In this document: positions 187 through 33,739 of the stretch, in pieces
Numbering within the stretch: the first letter of the stretch is position 1
Layout: each line of letters opens with the position of its first letter
Source: Spirochaetales bacterium
GTDB lineage: Bacteria > Spirochaetota > Spirochaetia > Sphaerochaetales > Sphaerochaetaceae
Direction of reading: 5' to 3'
Length of the DNA stretch: 33,962 nt
Assembly: GCA_012728215.1 (NCBI GenBank)
Contig: JAAYFO010000010.1
Span: forward strand, 1 to 33,962
Notes under the pieces: model-generated
Database searches by the model: none
What the model saw: the letters and a program-made list of their open reading frames with translations, nothing else
What the model was told of the DNA's origin: nothing
Position numbers and translations under genes: made by a program

Positions 187-2928
187 TCAGAGATTGCGGC
201 CACAGCAGTTCTTGTACTTCTTGCCGCTTCCGCATGGACAAGGATCGTTCCGGCCTACCTTGGTCTGAGTCCTGACAACAGTCTCACCCTGCCTCGATTC
301 CATTATTGGAGCATGCTGTCTTTGGCTGTCCAGCTGATTAATGCCGTTGTGATTCGCAACAGTCTCCTGCTGTGGTCCGCGGGCCTGACTCTGAGGATTG
401 ATCCTGACTATGAGCATTCTTGTCAGAACGCTTTTTCTGATGTTCTCCAGCATTTCATCGAAGATATCGAAACCTTCCAGCTTGTATTCGGTGAGCGGAT
501 TCATCTGTGCATAAGAACGGAGCCTGACGCTGTCCATCAATTCTGAAAGCTGATCAAGATGGTCCTGCCATCTTCGGTCAATCTCATAAAGATACACCTG
601 CCTGGTCAATCCATTGAACACATCACTCCCAAGTGCCTCCGCCTTTAGGGTGAGATTCTTCTCAAAGCTTTCCGAAATCTTCTTCTGCAGCTGTTCCTGA
701 GTGAGGCTCTCGTCCTCTGCACTGAAAGGGAAGAGAATGCGAAGCTCATCTCTGATGACTTCATAGACATGATTGATCATCTTCTTTCCAGCGAGTTTTT
801 CCTGCCCATTGAAAATCTCTTCCAGGATATCGTTCTTTGCCGAAATCAGTCTTGGAAGCATGTCCTTCTCCATAAGGATGGAATCCCTTTGCTGGTAGAT
901 GTATTCACGCTGCTCGTTGAGCACGTTGTCATACTCCAGAAGATGCTTTCGTATATCGAAGTTACGCTCCTCGACCTTCTTCTGGGCATTCTCAATCACC
1001 CGGGACACCAGTGAATGCTCTATCGGCTCACCTGTGTTCATGCCCAGCTTGCCAAGCATCCCCTTTATGCTGTCTTTTGCAAACAGCCGCATCAGAGTAT
1101 CGTCAAAGCTCACATAGAAACGGGATTTTCCAGGATCGCCCTGTCGTCCGCTTCTGCCTCGTAGCTGGTTGTCGATTCTACGTGATTCATGTCGTTCCGT
1201 TCCCAGAACATACAGTCCACCAAGGCTCTTGACCTCATCATAGTTCTTCTCCCATTCAGGACGAAGCTGAACCATTGCGGCCATGACGGCTTCATCATCA
1301 GCCTCAGACCCAACCTTCTTCCGTGCCAGGCCCTCCAGCGAACCGCCGAGCTTTATATCCGTTCCTCGTCCTGCCATGTTGGTTGCAATCGTGACTGCAC
1401 CCCTGGAACCTGCTTCCTCGATTATCAGAGCTTCACGTGCATGGTTCTTGGCATTGAGGACGTTATGTCTGATTCCCATCCTGGTAAGAAGGCTTGACAG
1501 CAGTTCCGATTTCTCGATTGAAACAGTTCCGACAAGCACCGGCTGTCCTTTCTCATGTGTCTCTTGAATATCCTTGCAGATAGCCGCAAGCTTGAAATCC
1601 TCTGACAGGAACACCAAATCGTCAAGGTCGGTTCTCTGCACCGGGACATGGGTGGGAATCACCACTACATCCAAACCGTAGATATCAAGGAATTCAGATG
1701 CTTCAGTATCGGCAGTGCCTGTCATTCCGGAAATCTTCGAATACATTCTGAAGAAGTTCTGAAGAGTGATTGTTGCGATGGTCTTGTTTATTCCATAGAC
1801 CCTGATATGCTCCTTCGCCTCTATGGCCTGATGAAGCCCTTCGCTGTAACGTCTTCCCTCCAGGATACGACCGGTGAATTCATCGACAATCTTGATCTTT
1901 TTGTCCTGGACAATATAATCCACATCCCTCTTGTAGCAAAGCTTTGCAGTGAGAGCCTGAGTCACGTAATGAACATAATCGAAGTTCTCATCATCGTATA
2001 TCGAGCCCTTGATTATGTTGTTCTGCTGGAGCAAGGACTCCATCTTGAGCATTCCATCCTTGGTGAAGGACACATGACGGGTCTTCTCATCCTTCTTGTA
2101 ATCACCTTCATCCTGTTCAGGGACGCTTCTGTCGAATCTGTCGAGGATTGAGGTCTCGGGATATTCACCTGTCTCAGGGTCCTTTGGGCATTCACGGAAC
2201 GAATTGAGAATCCTCTCGGCATTCTTTGCCTTCTGGGAATCATCCTCACCTTGACCGCTGATGATCAGAGGAGTTCGTGCCTCATCAATCAGAATTGAGT
2301 CTATCTCATCGACAATGCAGTAATGATGGCCGACCTGAAGCTTGTCTTCCTGACGATACTTCATGTTGTCACGAAGATAATCGAATCCAAGTTCATTATT
2401 CGTGCCATAAGTGATGTCACAGTTATAGGCAGCCCTCTTCGACTCGTTGTCCATCGATGAAAGAACCACCCCGACGCTCAGACCAAGGAATCTGTACACC
2501 TTGCCCATCCATTCGGAGTCACGTTGAGCAAGATAATCGTTGACAGTGACGATATGCACACCCTTTTCTTCCAATGAATTGAGATAAGCCGGCATGGTAC
2601 TGGTGAGGGTCTTTCCCTCTCCTGTCTTCATTTCCAGGATCTTTCCCTGATGAAGGACAATGGCTCCCATCACCTGAACATCATATGGTCGCTCTCCCAG
2701 AACTCTGAAAGCCGCTTCTCTTGCTATGGCGAAAGCCCAGGGCAGAAGGCTGTCCAACGACTCGCCTCCCGCCACTCTCTGCTTCAGCAGTTTCGTCTCC
2801 TTGGGAAAATCCCCATTATCAAGCGACTTAGCCTTGTCTTCCAGACTGTTGACCTTATCCACTATGGGAAGAAGCGCCTTCACATCTCTATCATTCTTTG
2901 TTCCAAATATCTTTGTAAAAATGCTCAT
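187..2928 (-). CDS. secA: Preprotein translocase ATPase SecA
   Basis: 913 aa; GEGKTLTSTMPAYLN Walker A, DEIDSILIDEARTPLIISG, C-terminal zinc motif GRNDPCPCGSGKKYKNCC. Confidence 0.98.
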   Translation of the reverse strand: MSIFTKIFGTKNDRDVKALLPIVDKVNSLEDKAKSLDNGDFPKETKLLKQRVAGGESLDSLLPWAFAIAREAAFRVLGERPYDVQVMGAIVLHQGKILEMKTGEGKTLTSTMPAYLNSLEEKGVHIVTVNDYLAQRDSEWMGKVYRFLGLSVGVVLSSMDNESKRAAYNCDITYGTNNELGFDYLRDNMKYRQEDKLQVGHHYCIVDEIDSILIDEARTPLIISGQGEDDSQKAKNAERILNSFRECPKDPETGEYPETSILDRFDRSVPEQDEGDYKKDEKTRHVSFTKDGMLKMESLLQQNNIIKGSIYDDENFDYVHYVTQALTAKLCYKRDVDYIVQDKKIKIVDEFTGRILEGRRYSEGLHQAIEAKEHIRVYGINKTIATITLQNFFRMYSKISGMTGTADTEASEFLDIYGLDVVVIPTHVPVQRTDLDDLVFLSEDFKLAAICKDIQETHEKGQPVLVGTVSIEKSELLSSLLTRMGIRHNVLNAKNHAREALIIEEAGSRGAVTIATNMAGRGTDIKLGGSLEGLARKKVGSEADDEAVMAAMVQLRPEWEKNYDEVKSLGGLYVLGTERHESRRIDNQLRGRSGRQGDPGKSRFYVSFDDTLMRLFAKDSIKGMLGKLGMNTGEPIEHSLVSRVIENAQKKVEERNFDIRKHLLEYDNVLNEQREYIYQQRDSILMEKDMLPRLISAKNDILEEIFNGQEKLAGKKMINHVYEVIRDELRILFPFSAEDESLTQEQLQKKISESFEKNLTLKAEALGSDVFNGLTRQVYLYEIDRRWQDHLDQLSELMDSVRLRSYAQMNPLTEYKLEGFDIFDEMLENIRKSVLTRMLIVRINPQSQARGPQQETVANHNGINQLDSQRQHAPIMESRQGETVVRTQTKVGRNDPCPCGSGKKYKNCCGRNL

Positions 2929-3005
2929 GTGATAATTATACTGATAATTGTTCCTAACGGGTAGAACCTAAGCGTTCTTTCGCGTTTTTTTTGTCTCTCA
3001 TGCTG

Positions 3006-4437: not shown

Positions 4438-5547
4438 TCAGAAGAATACCGAAGGATCCAGCATTATGCCGTTCTGTTCTATCTTGAACAAAAGCGTAGG
4501 GCTGTCATATGGCGAGGATTCGCTGCTGATTGTACCGATTTTCTGCCCTGCATCAACCTTGTCGCTCACACTCACACTGACTGAATCGGAATTGAGGAAG
4601 CAGTAATACGAGTTATAACCGCCTTCATGGGAAATCTTGACAAAGAAACCCATCTCTCCCGAAGCATCGTATGCGACATCCATCACTGTTCCGAATGAAG
4701 CAGCGTTGATCGAGGCACCTTCACTTCCCGAGATGAGAATTCCATCAAGAAGCTTTGAAGCCTTGGTGCCGGGGTTGACCTGAGACTGACCGTAATAGGC
4801 AACGACATGTCCCTTTGGAAGCGGCGAACTGAAATCGATTCCGCTTGCGGCGAACGAAATGGATTCGACTGAACTCTCATCAGGAATGAACAGCTTCTGT
4901 CCGACAAAGATACCCTCGCCCTTCAATCCATTTATCTCCATCAGCGTCTTCCACCCGATGGTGAGGTTGAACTTATTGACGATGTATGAAAGCGTGTCGT
5001 CCTTCTCGACAGTGTAATACCTTCCATTACGGTCAGGAATCACAATCGAAGTCCCTGCAACAACCGCGGCAGGATTCTTTATCTGGTTAATGCTGAGAAG
5101 AGTCTGAATCGAGACATTGAACTTCGATGCGACAGTTTCAAGAGTCTCAGAACCAACCAAAGTGTAATTCTGATACTTGACCTCTGCGTCAAATGAATTT
5201 CTCGAAGTATCCTTCAAGCTTGCCGCCGTAGTGCCCTGATTGAACTCCAGGGCTGTCTCCGGAATATTTGGACTGAGCACAGTCGCTTCTGTGGAACCAC
5301 TGGCCTCCGGCACTGCTTCTGCAGGAGCCTCAGAAGGAACATCAAAAGAAGATGTCTGGGCTACCGTCGTGCCGGCAGTTGGAGCTTCCACCTTGGACAG
5401 AAGGTTGTAGATGATCAAAACGGCAACTGCAATGATTATGAGAGTAAGAAGACAGATGACTGCGACCACTGCCTTTGAAAGCTTCTTTCTGGATTTCTGT
5501 CCGCCTTCAGACATTGAAGACAGATCATCGTAATTCGTTTTTAACAT
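4438..5547 (-). CDS. Membrane-anchored LysM (x2) protein with C-terminal LytM/M23-like domain
   Basis: N-terminal TM segment, two LysM-like segments (YTLVGSETLETVASKFNVSIQTLLSINQI; YTVEKDDTLSYIVNKFNLTIGWKTLMEINGL), C-terminal M23 fold-like region with canonical metal ligands missing. Confidence 0.82.
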   Translation of the reverse strand: MLKTNYDDLSSMSEGGQKSRKKLSKAVVAVICLLTLIIIAVAVLIIYNLLSKVEAPTAGTTVAQTSSFDVPSEAPAEAVPEASGSTEATVLSPNIPETALEFNQGTTAASLKDTSRNSFDAEVKYQNYTLVGSETLETVASKFNVSIQTLLSINQIKNPAAVVAGTSIVIPDRNGRYYTVEKDDTLSYIVNKFNLTIGWKTLMEINGLKGEGIFVGQKLFIPDESSVESISFAASGIDFSSPLPKGHVVAYYGQSQVNPGTKASKLLDGILISGSEGASINAASFGTVMDVAYDASGEMGFFVKISHEGGYNSYYCFLNSDSVSVSVSDKVDAGQKIGTISSESSPYDSPTLLFKIEQNGIMLDPSVFF

Positions 5548-5557
5548 ATTTCTGCTC

Positions 5558-5587
5558 TCGACATACTTATTGGTTAATAATATTATA
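5558..5587 (+). promoter_or_regulatory. ftsI promoter; its -10 overlaps a divergent -10 for the LysM gene
   Basis: TCGACA (5558-5563), 17 bp, TATTAT (5581-5586), 6 nt, ATG (5593). On the minus strand, TATAAT at 5582-5587. Confidence 0.55.
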
Positions 5588-5592
5588 CTTTT

Positions 5593-7242
5593 ATGAGCAA
5601 TGCTAGTAGGGAAAAAAGATTTTACAGACTCTTCGTCATATTTTCCATGTCTTTTGCCGTCCTTATCATCTTATTCTTTGCTTACAGAATGCTGTTTTCA
5701 AGGAGCAGCACGAAGAAATACTCAGACCCAGTGATATCCTCCACCTGCCAGAGGGGAAACATTCTTGACCGCAACGGAGAGATAATTGCCACAAGCATTC
5801 CATATCTGATGGTGATTGCCAATCCAAGACAGATTGTGGAAAAGGAAAGCTCAGCATTGAAGCTTTCTCAGATCCTTGGAGTTCCTTACGAGACGGTTCT
5901 TTCTTCATTGTCAGTCGATTCCGGATATCGAGTCCTCAAAAGGAAGATAGATTCTTCACAGTACGATTCTCTGAAGTCCAGACTTTCCGACGCAGGGCTT
6001 CTGGGACCGGTGTACATCCAAAGATATGATGGAAGATTCTATCCATCAGGGTTTCACGGTGCACAGATAATAGGTTTCACCGATGTGGATGGAAATGGAA
6101 TAGAAGGAATTGAAATGGCTTTTGATTCCATCCTCAAGGCCTACCCGACAGTGGGCAGGGAAACTTCAGTTGGGAATGATGTCTACCTCACCATCGACAT
6201 GCAGCTTCAATATCTCTGCGATTCAGTGATTCAGACAATGTGTGAGGAACACGACCCTGATTATGCAGTGCTTATTCTCCAGGATGCCAGGACTGGAGAG
6301 ATTCTTTCCTCCGTCTCATATCCATGGTACAACCCAAACAACTATAATCTCAGCACCGAGGACTCACTTCAGAACAAGGCTTTCGCCTTCATGTATGAGC
6401 CAGGCTCAGTGTTCAAGATATTCTCGCTTGCAGCATGTCTTGAGGCCGGAACAGCGGATTTCACGACAGAATACGAATGCACTGGGTCCCGTACATTTGT
6501 CACTGATTCAAGACAGAGCGTCACAATAACCTGCCATGAGCCACATGGGGTGATCGACTATGAAGGAATGATTGCAAAATCCTGCAACGGTGCAATATCA
6601 AACTGGGCATTGCAGACTTCAAATGAAGAATTCTACAATGGACTGGAGGATTTCCATTTCTCCACGGAGTACGACATCCCATTGTTCAACGCCTCCGGGT
6701 CGCTGTCATCACCGGAAAACTGGTCATATCGATCCAAGAGTACAATCAGCTTTGGGCAGGAAATGATGGCTACGCCACTTCAGCTTGCAAATGCGGCGAC
6801 GGTGTTCACCAATCAGGGAATTCTGCTTGAGCCACAGCTGATTCTCAAGACTGTCAGCCAGGACGGAATCATTTCCAACCAGGCAAAGAGAACGGAGCTC
6901 AACCAGACAGTCAGTGCCGAAACAGCATCAAAGGTGCTGCTTGCCATGAAGAAAGCCACCGAGAAAGGCGGAACTGCAATCAAGACCTCTGTAGCCGGGC
7001 TGGAAGTTGCAGCCAAGACTGGAACTGCAGAGATCCTGAACTCGGACACTGGTGCTGTGACCGCATCCACGCTTGCCGTGTTTCCTGCGGATGATCCAAT
7101 GTACATAGTCTACATCGCCGCCAGCAACCCGAAGGGTTCAACGATATGGGGTGCCAACATAGCCAGCCCAGCCATAGGCAACCTGATTGATGACATGGTG
7201 AGTGCAGGAAAGCTGAAAAGCCTGGAATACAAGCTACCCTAG
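5593..7242 (+). CDS. ftsI: Penicillin-binding protein transpeptidase (FtsI/PBP class B)
   Basis: N-terminal TM, RGNILDRNG, SxxK (EPGSVFKIF), SxN (KSCNGAIS), KTG (AAKTGTAE). Confidence 0.88.
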   Translation: MSNASREKRFYRLFVIFSMSFAVLIILFFAYRMLFSRSSTKKYSDPVISSTCQRGNILDRNGEIIATSIPYLMVIANPRQIVEKESSALKLSQILGVPYETVLSSLSVDSGYRVLKRKIDSSQYDSLKSRLSDAGLLGPVYIQRYDGRFYPSGFHGAQIIGFTDVDGNGIEGIEMAFDSILKAYPTVGRETSVGNDVYLTIDMQLQYLCDSVIQTMCEEHDPDYAVLILQDARTGEILSSVSYPWYNPNNYNLSTEDSLQNKAFAFMYEPGSVFKIFSLAACLEAGTADFTTEYECTGSRTFVTDSRQSVTITCHEPHGVIDYEGMIAKSCNGAISNWALQTSNEEFYNGLEDFHFSTEYDIPLFNASGSLSSPENWSYRSKSTISFGQEMMATPLQLANAATVFTNQGILLEPQLILKTVSQDGIISNQAKRTELNQTVSAETASKVLLAMKKATEKGGTAIKTSVAGLEVAAKTGTAEILNSDTGAVTASTLAVFPADDPMYIVYIAASNPKGSTIWGANIASPAIGNLIDDMVSAGKLKSLEYKLP

Positions 7243-29294: not shown

Positions 29295-30305
29295 TCAGGG
29301 AAGATGGGCAATCACCTTGGCCACGGAATCAATTTCGTTACGAGAAAGAAATGGATATATCGGAAAGACTACAGCTCTGAGAAGATATGGGATTGCACAG
29401 GGAAAATGATCGAAATCATCCAGAAAAGGAATTCCTGCGGAATCAGAAAAAGCCATCCTTATCGGAACCTGATATCTGTCACCGAACTTTATGACATCCT
29501 GTGGCTTGGAATCCAGAAGAACACAGAAGTATCCACCATTGATATCAAAGTCAACGCTGTTGAGTCCGAACAGCTTGTGTCCCGAACTCATGAGACTCTG
29601 TCTGAAAAGCCTGTATATCTCCTTCCTGCGTGCAAGCCGCTCCTCAAGATTTGCCAGCTGGACTATTCCAAGGGATGAATTGAGATCCGGAAGGCTGCGG
29701 AACAATGAATCGTCCGAGTCCTGGCTTTCAATCTTTCCATCCCGGATTCCACAGAAGGCACCGCCACCTGTAGATATGAGATTGTTCTCCTCCAAGGCGC
29801 AGATGACTGCATCACCCTGATGTCCGGCTGCATCATCGTTGAAACGGCTTCCCATGCTTCTTGAGACGTCCTCGATAATGAACATTCCAGTCTCATGAAA
29901 ATTCCTCTGATATGGTATCGAACCGAACGGTTCATCAATGATCACCGCCTTTGCAAGGCAGTTTTTAACCTTGTTCAAATCAATGCAGCAGTTCTCAGGA
30001 TCTATGTCTATGTATTCCACTGAAAGACTGCACTCTGAAGCAACATCAGCGTAGAGTCTGGGAGACAGAACCGACATGGCAATGCTGTCTCCAGGCTGCA
30101 GATCGGCAATAAGAAAGGCATTCTTGATTGCATCTGGATACGAGCGCAGGGCAATACCGTCACTAAGAGACAGCAGCCGGCAGAGACCTTCAACAAATTC
30201 CTTACGCCTTATTCCAGGACCTATTTTTTCATCAACCATTGTCTGGAGCACCGAATCCATATCCTTTCGAGTGATGGTCGGCTTATAAAACTCAATTTGA
30301 CCCAT
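29295..30305 (-). CDS. DegT/DnrJ/EryC1-family fold protein lacking the PLP lysine
   Basis: Overall DegT architecture (YKPTITRKDMD..., PGDSIAMSVLSP, MFIIEDVSRSMGSRF, STGGGAF), but EENNLISTGGGAF at the expected K-x-x-[ST]-[TC]-G-E-G-G site. Confidence 0.72.
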   Translation of the reverse strand: MGQIEFYKPTITRKDMDSVLQTMVDEKIGPGIRRKEFVEGLCRLLSLSDGIALRSYPDAIKNAFLIADLQPGDSIAMSVLSPRLYADVASECSLSVEYIDIDPENCCIDLNKVKNCLAKAVIIDEPFGSIPYQRNFHETGMFIIEDVSRSMGSRFNDDAAGHQGDAVICALEENNLISTGGGAFCGIRDGKIESQDSDDSLFRSLPDLNSSLGIVQLANLEERLARRKEIYRLFRQSLMSSGHKLFGLNSVDFDINGGYFCVLLDSKPQDVIKFGDRYQVPIRMAFSDSAGIPFLDDFDHFPCAIPYLLRAVVFPIYPFLSRNEIDSVAKVIAHLP

Positions 30306-30311
30306 GAATTG

Positions 30312-30352
30312 ATTATAACTTCTACAAAGACAAGAAACAAGTTGTTTCTTGT
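30312..30352 (-). promoter_or_regulatory. Promoter of the DegT-like gene with a perfect 23-nt inverted repeat over the -35 region
   Basis: ACAAGAAACAA-G-TTGTTTCTTGT at 30330-30352 (plus strand). Minus-strand TTGTTT-N17-TATAAT (30312-30317)-N6-ATG. Confidence 0.5.
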
Positions 30353-30694: not shown

Positions 30695-33600
30695 TCAAAT
30701 GACCTTGAGAACAAAGTCTTGGCTGTACAATACAGTCATCAGAGAATAAACATTGATTCGCAGTACGATCTCCTGTCCAGCCACAGCGTTCTTTGCCACA
30801 TGAACAAGCAATCTGTTCCTGACGTCAGGATTGATGGAAGCTATGCTCAAGAGCATGTTCGGCACAAGATTGCCTGAAGTCTTGACTATGCCAGTCAAGA
30901 CTTCTGCATCTCCTTGAACGACTTCAACGGATAGATTGACAAGTGGAGAAGTCGAAAGCCCGATATTTCTCACATCGAATCCAATCTCCACTGTTTCCCC
31001 GGCCTTTGCTTCCAAAGCCCTCTTGGAATTGTCCTCGGCGATCAGATAGATGTCCTCCATCAGAATGTTGAAGGTCCTTCGTCCTGTTACAAGATCATAA
31101 TCCACTATCCAGCTTCTCAATGATGAATCTGTGAACTGGAACCGTATTGGAAGCTTCACATTCACTGGGACCACTGGCGATACTGTCAGACCAGGTCGGG
31201 AGAATGAGACGGGAACCGTTCTTCCTGGATTGAGATTGCCGACGACTACACTTGCCCTCTCTGAAATCAAATCGTTGTCAAAATATACGACAAAACGGAC
31301 TTTCTCAAGTGGTTTCTCACCCTTATACTCAATGACTGGTTTGATCTTCAGAACATCAGACGAATAGACTCGTTCGAAGTTTTCCTTGCCTTCGATGAAT
31401 ACGTTGACTATCGACATATCAGGATTATATGCCTTCATATCCACTGAAACAGTCCACTTGAGATCATTCTTGTCAATATTACTGCAGGTCAGGTCAATAA
31501 CAGCGGTTCTGTCATTCTTCAATTCAGCAGTGACATAACCCGAAAGCTGTGTTGAAAGAGGAAGATTTGGCCTGAAGTTGACAACCGTGGTCTCACCGGC
31601 CTTCAGAAGAGGAACTATAATTCTATCGCCTTCAACCTTGAGGAATTCATCGCTGCTGGAAATATTCACTTCGACATTGTAGAGGTTTTCGAGCCCATTA
31701 TTCGAAATGCTGAGCTGCACTCCGAATCTTTCACCATTCTCGAGGAATTCATCGCCATTTCCAAGCTTGATCAGCTCGAACTTATCAAGCGCCAGGTTCA
31801 TTATTGAATTCTTAAGGACCCAGTCGAACTTGCCATTGAAGACCTTTCCGCTCTTTGTTGTCGCACGCAGCAGAATTGTCGCATTTCTGTCATCACCAAA
31901 TCTGGAAGGATCGGCAATGAGCGACAAAGGCTTGTCCGAAGGGCTCAGGAGTCCGGACTTCAGCTCTTCTGATGTCTGGTAGTTTCCCGATGTGCTTGCA
32001 AACCATCCAGCTTCGAGTTTGTCTATTGTCCATGATACCCAGTTCCGACCGCCATCCGCTGAGGCCTCCACAAGAAGGTCGTCAAGAGCCTTCTCGCCAT
32101 AGTTGAATATTCCAAGGCTTATATATAGCTCACGCAGAATGCCATCTGGTCCAGGCATATCATTCACTCTGAAATCAGTGAATGCCACGCCTTCCTTGAT
32201 CACTTCGACTATCGGAGCTTCAAAATCCGATTTGCTCAATGTAAATTCCAATGTCCCAGAGTTATTGAACTTATCCTGAAACTCGATGGCAAATTGCGGG
32301 TCGGTGGTCATGTCCTCAATCTGAAGATAATAACGAAGATAAGTGGAACTCCCTGATTTGACATCATCTAAAATCACAAGATCACCACCATTGTCCTTGT
32401 CGATTATCGAAAGGCCGTCACTCTTGGCAAGCCTGAAAGTCGGGCTGACCAAAGTGCTTTGGGATGAGTTGTTCATCACCTCAACAAAGAGTTCATGTCT
32501 GTTCCTGTCATAGCTGATCTGCCCCAGGCCAATGATCAAGGATCCTTTGCTGACAGCAATATCTACATCTCGGTAATATACTCTGCCTCTTGAATCCTCC
32601 AATGCGGCAATGAGATCAATCTGTCCTTCTGACTCAAAATCCTTGCCAAGCTGAACCAGTATGCCCTGCTTCATTGGAAATTCCTGGGTCTTTCCAGATA
32701 CCATCACTATGCCTTCAAGATCACGAGGTGAATAGAGCGAGACGGTCAGTCGGCCTTCCATGGCTTCCTGTTCCAACGCTTCGGCGTCACCGCTGGATCG
32801 GAGGTTCAGAACAATGCTTCCGGTTTCACCATTCTGAAGAATTCCATCGCCATTGCCATCTACTTCCTCAAAAGATGATAACTCAACATCATGGCTGATC
32901 CATACACCCTCGGCAATCTGAGTCTTTCTCATGTTCAAAAGCTTATCATTCGGACGGTAAAGCGTTCCATCGATTCGCCATCCCCAGAAGCAGCTCTGAT
33001 CATCCCCTCGCTCAACGATGTCTGGAAGAACCAATTCCTCATCATCCTGCCCCATGGACAGGACATACTCATCAATCTTCATTCCTGGCTTGAAAAGGAC
33101 ATCTGAATTCCATATAGGCTTGAATGACATATCTGAATATTCAGCTTTCCATGTCGTTCCATTTTTCCAGACCTTTCCTTTGGAATCATACCAACCGGAA
33201 ACGGTGACGCCTTCATCCTGGGATGAGGACGAAGGTATGGTCACTTCCTCATATGGATATACTTTGATTTCCAGGTCGGATCGAGTGGAATCTATAGACG
33301 AATATAGAAATCTTACGTGGACAGCGAGACCCAAGGTATCGAACAACTCATATTTGAGTTCCTGAGTCTTATCTGGAGTGTATCCTGAACTATCGAGGAT
33401 TCTAAGACAATAATCAATTGTCTTGTTGTCAAGCTTGGATTTTTGGAATTCATCAAGTTCATTTTGAACCATCTGGGCACTGTATGTGTCAAAGCGACCT
33501 TCATAGAATCTTATCCGTTTCTCCAAATTGGCAGCTTTTTCAATCTTTCTATCAGAAAATTCGAGGATTCTACGACGAATTTCAGGATAGGTGCGACTGG

Positions 33601-33703
33601 CAAGTATCTCGTTTTCTATCTGCAAAAAAGTAGTTGATTCTGCAAACGCCATTCCACCCACTAGTATGAACAGAAATACAAATACAAGACTCTTTTTCAA
33701 CAT
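30695..33703 (-). CDS. Large secreted protein with repeated beta-sandwich (CARDB/Ig-like) segments
   Basis: Signal peptide MLKKSLVFVFLFILVGGMAFA. Ca-loop-like DGNGDGILQNGE and KLGNGDEFLENGE repeats. InlB-repeat-like segment VTVSGWYDSKGKVWKNGTTWKAEYSDMSFKPIW. Start moved from 33745 to 33703. Confidence 0.7.
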   Translation of the reverse strand: MLKKSLVFVFLFILVGGMAFAESTTFLQIENEILASRTYPEIRRRILEFSDRKIEKAANLEKRIRFYEGRFDTYSAQMVQNELDEFQKSKLDNKTIDYCLRILDSSGYTPDKTQELKYELFDTLGLAVHVRFLYSSIDSTRSDLEIKVYPYEEVTIPSSSSQDEGVTVSGWYDSKGKVWKNGTTWKAEYSDMSFKPIWNSDVLFKPGMKIDEYVLSMGQDDEELVLPDIVERGDDQSCFWGWRIDGTLYRPNDKLLNMRKTQIAEGVWISHDVELSSFEEVDGNGDGILQNGETGSIVLNLRSSGDAEALEQEAMEGRLTVSLYSPRDLEGIVMVSGKTQEFPMKQGILVQLGKDFESEGQIDLIAALEDSRGRVYYRDVDIAVSKGSLIIGLGQISYDRNRHELFVEVMNNSSQSTLVSPTFRLAKSDGLSIIDKDNGGDLVILDDVKSGSSTYLRYYLQIEDMTTDPQFAIEFQDKFNNSGTLEFTLSKSDFEAPIVEVIKEGVAFTDFRVNDMPGPDGILRELYISLGIFNYGEKALDDLLVEASADGGRNWVSWTIDKLEAGWFASTSGNYQTSEELKSGLLSPSDKPLSLIADPSRFGDDRNATILLRATTKSGKVFNGKFDWVLKNSIMNLALDKFELIKLGNGDEFLENGERFGVQLSISNNGLENLYNVEVNISSSDEFLKVEGDRIIVPLLKAGETTVVNFRPNLPLSTQLSGYVTAELKNDRTAVIDLTCSNIDKNDLKWTVSVDMKAYNPDMSIVNVFIEGKENFERVYSSDVLKIKPVIEYKGEKPLEKVRFVVYFDNDLISERASVVVGNLNPGRTVPVSFSRPGLTVSPVVPVNVKLPIRFQFTDSSLRSWIVDYDLVTGRRTFNILMEDIYLIAEDNSKRALEAKAGETVEIGFDVRNIGLSTSPLVNLSVEVVQGDAEVLTGIVKTSGNLVPNMLLSIASINPDVRNRLLVHVAKNAVAGQEIVLRINVYSLMTVLYSQDFVLKVI

Positions 33704-33709
33704 GATTTT

Positions 33710-33739
33710 ATTATTGCCCATTTCCATGCAAAATGTAAA
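33710..33739 (-). promoter_or_regulatory. Putative promoter of the large secreted protein gene
   Basis: Minus strand: TTTACA (33734-33739), 18 bp, AATAAT (33710-33715), 6 nt, ATG (33703). Confidence 0.45.

Follow-up and report, generated by a model that had tools for sequence, protein, structure and literature searches.

Genes of an uncultured spirochaete with a -10 box exactly six nucleotides before the ATG and a probable leaderless start

In this study, we observed that four genes of an uncultured spirochaete, among them secA and an ftsI-like gene, carry a -10 hexamer that ends exactly 6 nt before the ATG (N6) and no Shine-Dalgarno (SD) sequence, and that this -10/N6/ATG pattern is not due to chance. 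The four genes are most probably leaderless, like about 2-4% of all genes, and this class exists side by side with SD-led genes; we give this reading a probability of roughly 0.88. In the proposed mechanism, sigma-70-type promoters would drive the four genes, and the commonest start point, 7 nt past the hexamer, would be the A of the ATG. Such an mRNA would possess no 5' leader, and the ribosome would recognize the 5'-terminal AUG instead of an SD sequence. We infer the actual transcription start and the leaderless mode of translation from the exact spacing, its enrichment in the genome, the pyrimidine at -1, the enriched -35 boxes, the exclusive use of ATG, the absence of SD and the spacing found in orthologues.

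The window, i.e., the whole stretch of DNA that was analysed, is a single contig (33,962 b) of a MAG of 1.76 Mb (212 contigs, 97% complete). The SecA encoded on it shares 73% identity with SecA of Spirochaetales bacterium RGIG8304, a MAG from water-buffalo rumen, and because of this match the host is taken to be a gut-type spirochaete. Pfam supports the gene names used here (secA, aldolase II, LysM and M23 peptidase, Transpeptidase/PBP_dimer for the ftsI-like gene, DegT and CARDB). The first-pass annotation had described N6 spacing without SD at four genes, and direct reading confirmed it at each of them. The ftsI/PBP-like gene (5593..7242, + strand) is preceded by TCGACA (5558-5563), N17 and TATTAT (5581-5586), followed by N6 and the ATG (5593-5595), so that promoter and start span 5558..5595. 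The other three genes lie on the minus strand. In secA (187..2928), TATAAT (2935-2940) is separated by N6 from the ATG (2928-2926; site 2926..2940). The DegT/DnrJ/EryC1-like gene (29295..30305) has TTGTTT (30340-30335), N17, TATAAT (30317-30312), N6 and ATG (30305-30303; site 30303..30340). The gene of a large secreted protein (30695..33703, start set at 33703), which has a CARDB domain and a signal-peptide-like N-terminus (MLKKSLVFVFLFILVGGMAFA), has TTTACA (33739-33734), N18, the weak -10 box AATAAT (33715-33710), N6 and ATG (33703-33701; site 33701..33739). All four are predicted to be leaderless, and no SD-like tri- or tetramer occurs within the 20 nt preceding the ATG at any of the four sites.

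The -35 boxes of these genes differ in quality. They are good in ftsI (TCGACA, N17) and the secreted protein gene (TTTACA, N18) and moderate in degT (TTGTTT, N17); secA shows no recognisable -35, its best candidate being TCTACC at N19. Compared with the sigma-70-type consensus (TTGACA/TATAAT, spacer 16-18), ftsI matches 5/6 positions in TCGACA and 5/6 in TATTAT at N17. The C at the second -35 position of ftsI is unusual for sigma-70-type promoters and recurs in relatives. Neither TATTAT nor AATAAT, taken singly, shows a genome-wide N6 peak in the host genome; thus, ftsI and the secreted protein gene rely on their -35 matches and on conservation. Elsewhere in the window, the ATG of a DUF3536/GH57-like gene (24444, + strand) follows TATACT at a distance of 9 nt and is not preceded by a proper SD; this gene possibly has a near-leaderless start too. 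The gene of the large secreted protein is preceded, at about 150 nt, by a 5S rRNA gene (Rfam RF00001; 33852-33962, minus strand) that the contig end truncates, and the contig break probably falls inside an rRNA operon.

If leaderless starts form a class of their own, -10-like hexamers should be enriched at N6 throughout the genome, as the first-pass annotation had predicted, and this was found. In the whole genome, TATAAT-N6-ATG occurs 14 times, compared with a single match for the reversed pattern. In a gene-level sample of 80 stretches (682 kb, 39% of the MAG), we counted the TATAAT-Nk-ATG sites whose ATG begins an ORF of 100 aa or more; there are 10 with k=6, and the other values of k between 0 and 40 have 0-4 each. 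For the same sample we called 645 genes with a home-made procedure; their starts were set by a hexamer coding score only, and upstream signals therefore had no influence on the N6 result. With a strict -10 box (TAnnnT with at most one mismatch to TATAAT), 15 ATG genes fall at N6, and other gaps hold 0-8 (mean about 2-3). Composition-preserving shuffles of the upstream regions gave a mean of 2.2 at N6 and a maximum of 8 in 300, so that the TAnnnT signal at about -12 to -7 by which TA-led genes are defined is present above chance. The number of N6 candidates rises to 25 if alternative starts are also counted. All 15 N6 genes begin with ATG, and GTG/TTG starts showed no N6 excess in this sample. 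SD tetramers peak 5-9 nt from the start of the 645 called genes; therefore, SD is the main start mode in the host genome. None of the 15 N6 genes has an SD tetramer, which is partly forced, as the -10 box sits where an SD would be. From the N6 excess over chance, we estimate that very likely about 2-4% of the host genes have leaderless starts.

Bacterial transcription favours a start at a purine that follows a pyrimidine. C occupies position -1 in 12/15 N6 genes and in 84/413 other ATG genes (Fisher p 2e-6), and a pyrimidine does so in 14/15 and 194/413, respectively (p 3e-4). C also precedes 18 of 38 non-start ATGs with a -10 box at N6 (24% for any ATG), which means that the contrast at -1 may partly reflect sequence context and that this test is weakened. 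Similarity to a -35 box, located at N16-18, is greater at the N6 genes than at the non-start controls (p 1.7e-4). Both tests concern 15 N6 genes from one MAG. Taken together, C/T at -1, a -35 at about N17 and the exclusive use of ATG fit a transcription start at the A of the ATG.

The coexistence of two start classes was likewise borne out among first genes. Those without SD have a -10 box at N6 in 11/104 cases, whereas the -10 boxes of SD-bearing ones all lie at least 15 nt upstream, except for one stray at 0. The assertion that other first genes of the window have a clear SD was checked in part: the aldolase gene and hslU possess one, mraZ shows AAGGA upstream of the second in-frame start, and none was seen at the DUF4912 start as called. 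In principle, the hexamers could be chance AT-rich sequence, with SD-less genes using an S1-type mechanism and their true promoters lying further upstream. The 93/104 SD-less first genes that have no -10 at N6 speak in its favour, since another SD-less route must exist for them unless their starts are miscalled. As an account of the N6 genes, however, this is very improbable, given 15 observed sites against 2.2 in shuffles, the enrichment of -35 boxes at N16-18 and the retention of N6 by orthologues with different hexamers.

Conservation of the spacing in related genomes, the further check that had been proposed, was seen both in a genome of the same genus and among orthologues. In a 333-kb sample of the same-genus genome G002, 14 sites fall at N6, compared with about 2 at other gaps. 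We collected 93 non-self orthologues of secA, degT, hflX, pgsA and dinB, whose starts were placed by aligning them with the query, irrespective of any motif (hflX, the PgsA-like gene and dinB were identified from their sequences). A strict -10 box lies at N6 in 15 of them and at any other gap in 0-4. With a relaxed -10, N6 orthologues carry C/T at -1 in 21/22 cases and ATG in 22/22. A plain count of exact TATAAT over 41 relatives gave 999 at N6, compared with 854 at N5 and 936 at N8; about 10 of the 41 show a nominal individual N6 excess, and G000 itself shows none (p 0.18) in this count, which is blind to the following ORF. This test is blunt because AT-rich genomes swamp the signal.

The degT N6 spacing is kept in eight genomes (G001, G005, G008, G009, G010, G012, G015 and G027) with varying hexamers and discriminators, some of the -10 boxes being weak. 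Retention of N6 while the other sequence changes supports a leaderless start. In the same-genus G002, degT has N8, and in G004 and G006 it is leadered, with GTG and an SD. secA keeps N6 in four other genera (G008, G009, G010 and G015); an N6 -10 box is absent from secA in the same-genus G002 and in several other genera, where upstream regions are longer and some have an SD. In G003, G005, G016 and G027 (loci L231, L215, L214 and L217, respectively), we noted a GTATAC/GTATATT-type promoter upstream of secA, a leader of about 30-40 nt and an SD-like sequence. The leadered secA of other genera suggests that the gene switched its start class within the family and beyond. The secreted protein gene reads TTTACA-N17-GATAAT-N6-ATG in G002, the one relative examined, and dinB in G002 begins with TTG and an SD. 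This mixture of N6 and leadered orthologues indicates that the leaderless state comes and goes over short evolutionary distances. The description of ftsI as the best case thus holds by its -35/-10 score but not by conservation of the spacing, in which degT and secA stand first.

Transcription might also begin 1-5 nt before the ATG, with initiation on ultra-short, SD-less, AU-rich leaders. Orthologues at N7-N9 do exist (such as the N8 degT of G002), and ftsI starts 7-9 nt from its -10 box in families f3, f4 and f17, in most of f11 and in most of f1. A gap of 9 nt between TANTAT and the ftsI start is common among relatives; use of that box would imply a leader of about 3 nt, and a leaderless start would require the overlapping TATATT at N6 to serve as the -10. 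A tolerated leader, however, would spread the signal over N6-N11, and the observed peak is confined to the single position N6 in the host, in G002 and among orthologues; moreover, the pyrimidine at -1 suits a start at A(+1). We therefore regard ultra-short leaders as unlikely for the class and favour a leaderless start at the A of the ATG.

Leaderless starts are already known in bacteria, predicted for Spirochaetes and mapped in Leptospira, and are thus not new for spirochaetes. TA-led leaderless genes were predicted in 207/953 bacterial genomes, including 6/18 Spirochaetes genomes with an average of 3.9% (1.8-6.9) of genes (Zheng et al. 2011, PMC3160421). As in our case, these genes have TAnnnT about 12 bp before the start codon and form a minority beside SD-led genes; here, an uncultured spirochaete lineage is concerned, and the exact N6 spacing and the switching between leadered and leaderless states were traced gene by gene. 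In Leptospira interrogans, also a spirochaete but of a different group, dRNA-seq found 170-184 genes whose transcription start is the start codon and about 440 with less than 10 nt (PMC5243855). The starts were mapped on RNA there and are read from sequence here, and in contrast to the clear -10 motif of the present genes, the Leptospira study reported sigma-54 elements as its only conserved motifs (PMC5243855). Leaderless genes of Deinococcus-Thermus and Actinobacteria likewise have a -10 box directly before the start codon and lack SD, but there they make up more than 20% of genes (Zheng 2011, PMC3160421), compared with a few percent here.

Our analysis shows that the exact N6 spacing in this spirochaete is real and retained across related genera. 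An uncultured gut spirochaete lineage is added to the leaderless set, with secA and ftsI, which are essential in model bacteria, among its genes. Leaderless ATG genes with leadered GTG or TTG orthologues that carry an SD provide a natural series for studying when and why a leader is dropped. For annotation, a gene finder using SD only can misplace N6 starts. Furthermore, leaderless and leadered mRNAs were reported to respond differently to some antibiotics that act on initiation (PMC9581028).

The least expected by-product of this study is that the ftsI promoter lies in an element conserved throughout the class. The divergent LysM + peptidase M23 gene (4438..5547, minus strand) shares with ftsI an intergenic promoter region of 45 bp. 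Between the two genes (5556..5587) lies a copy, here TCTCGACA...ATAATATTATA, of the element TATCGACA-N17-TANTATA, which adjoins ftsI, or a short ORF followed by ftsI, in 47 genomes from 13 families. An opposite-strand ORF nearly always stands beside it, recognisable as M23-like in most cases, so that the divergent order is conserved as well. Most of the 47 genomes were collected by a search for TCGACA-N17/18-TANTATA, and those letters are conserved by construction. Two sets of data are free of this bias. In columns outside the search pattern, the TA before TCGACA is conserved at 0.99 and 0.94 and the ATA before TANTATA at 0.99-1.00. Among ftsI orthologues fetched by protein, 13/20 full-length ones carry the element; it is absent from those of G006 and G012. 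TANTAT and the start are 6 or 9 nt apart in f1, 9 in f3, f4 and f17 and 3-9 in f11, in all cases without SD. The gap amounts to 29-43 nt in f22, where an SD is present, and to 35-37 nt in f6 and f10, which lack one. The ftsI -10 box can be read in more than one register, as TANTAT at N17 from the -35 or as TATAnT three bases further on, and in several relatives the latter is separated by N6 from the ATG.

For ftsI, the conservation could instead reflect an operator or dedicated promoter of the divergent M23/ftsI pair, with N6 being incidental. Such a role would account for the maintenance of TATCGACA-N17-TANTATA in 47 genomes whether ftsI is leadered or not, for a -35-like block that reads TCGACA and not TTGACA, and for the single convincing copy in the host genome sample. 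On the other hand, the spacing of the two blocks (N17, N18 in two genomes) is that of RNA polymerase -35/-10 boxes, and f1, f3, f4, f11 and f17 all show SD-less starts at a distance of no more than 9 nt. We consider this explanation doubtful but worth keeping in mind for ftsI, and read the element as a promoter that serves the peptidase/ftsI pair, is conserved and possibly acts in both directions; the ftsI leader would have been lost in part of the families. A dedicated regulator may exist. It is tempting to speculate that such a regulator, or a sigma factor of its own, acts on the class-fixed element and couples septal wall synthesis to wall cleavage, and that ftsI of several families turned leaderless, but we hold this proposal only tentatively.

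A regulon of TCGACA promoters was not apparent, as the 682-kb sample has one strict match, and a PWM scan of this sample gave no second convincing site; the scan also missed the element of G002 itself, which has a spacer of 18 instead of 17. The second-best PWM site (L071:138-176 and nearby) is a ATCGATAT-rich, repeat-like stretch with repeated ATCGATA words. Outside the class, 11 matches were found in 100 genomes of the phylum, all without the extended ATATTANTATA block, and were judged to be chance. Other conceivable identities of the element are a DnaA box (TATCCACA, to be compared with TATCGACA), a dif site or, on the opposite strand, a sigma-28 promoter (GTCGATA).

The ftsI/M23 region contains overlapping opposite -10-like boxes, TANTAT on the forward and TAATAT on the reverse strand. 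This is similar to bidirectional promoters with a shared -10 symmetry (Warman et al.; PMC12825309), in which the start points lie 10, 18 or 23 bp apart. For ftsI/M23, the start points would be separated by about 24 bp, near the 23-bp class (PMC12825309). Unlike that set, the present case concerns a single locus that is fixed throughout a bacterial class; its conserved -35-like block is unusual, and its bidirectionality is putative. A further divergent arrangement was noticed at L300 of G002, where two ORFs each have a -10 box at N6 and their promoters overlap in one short intergenic region; these ORFs possibly form a leaderless divergent pair.
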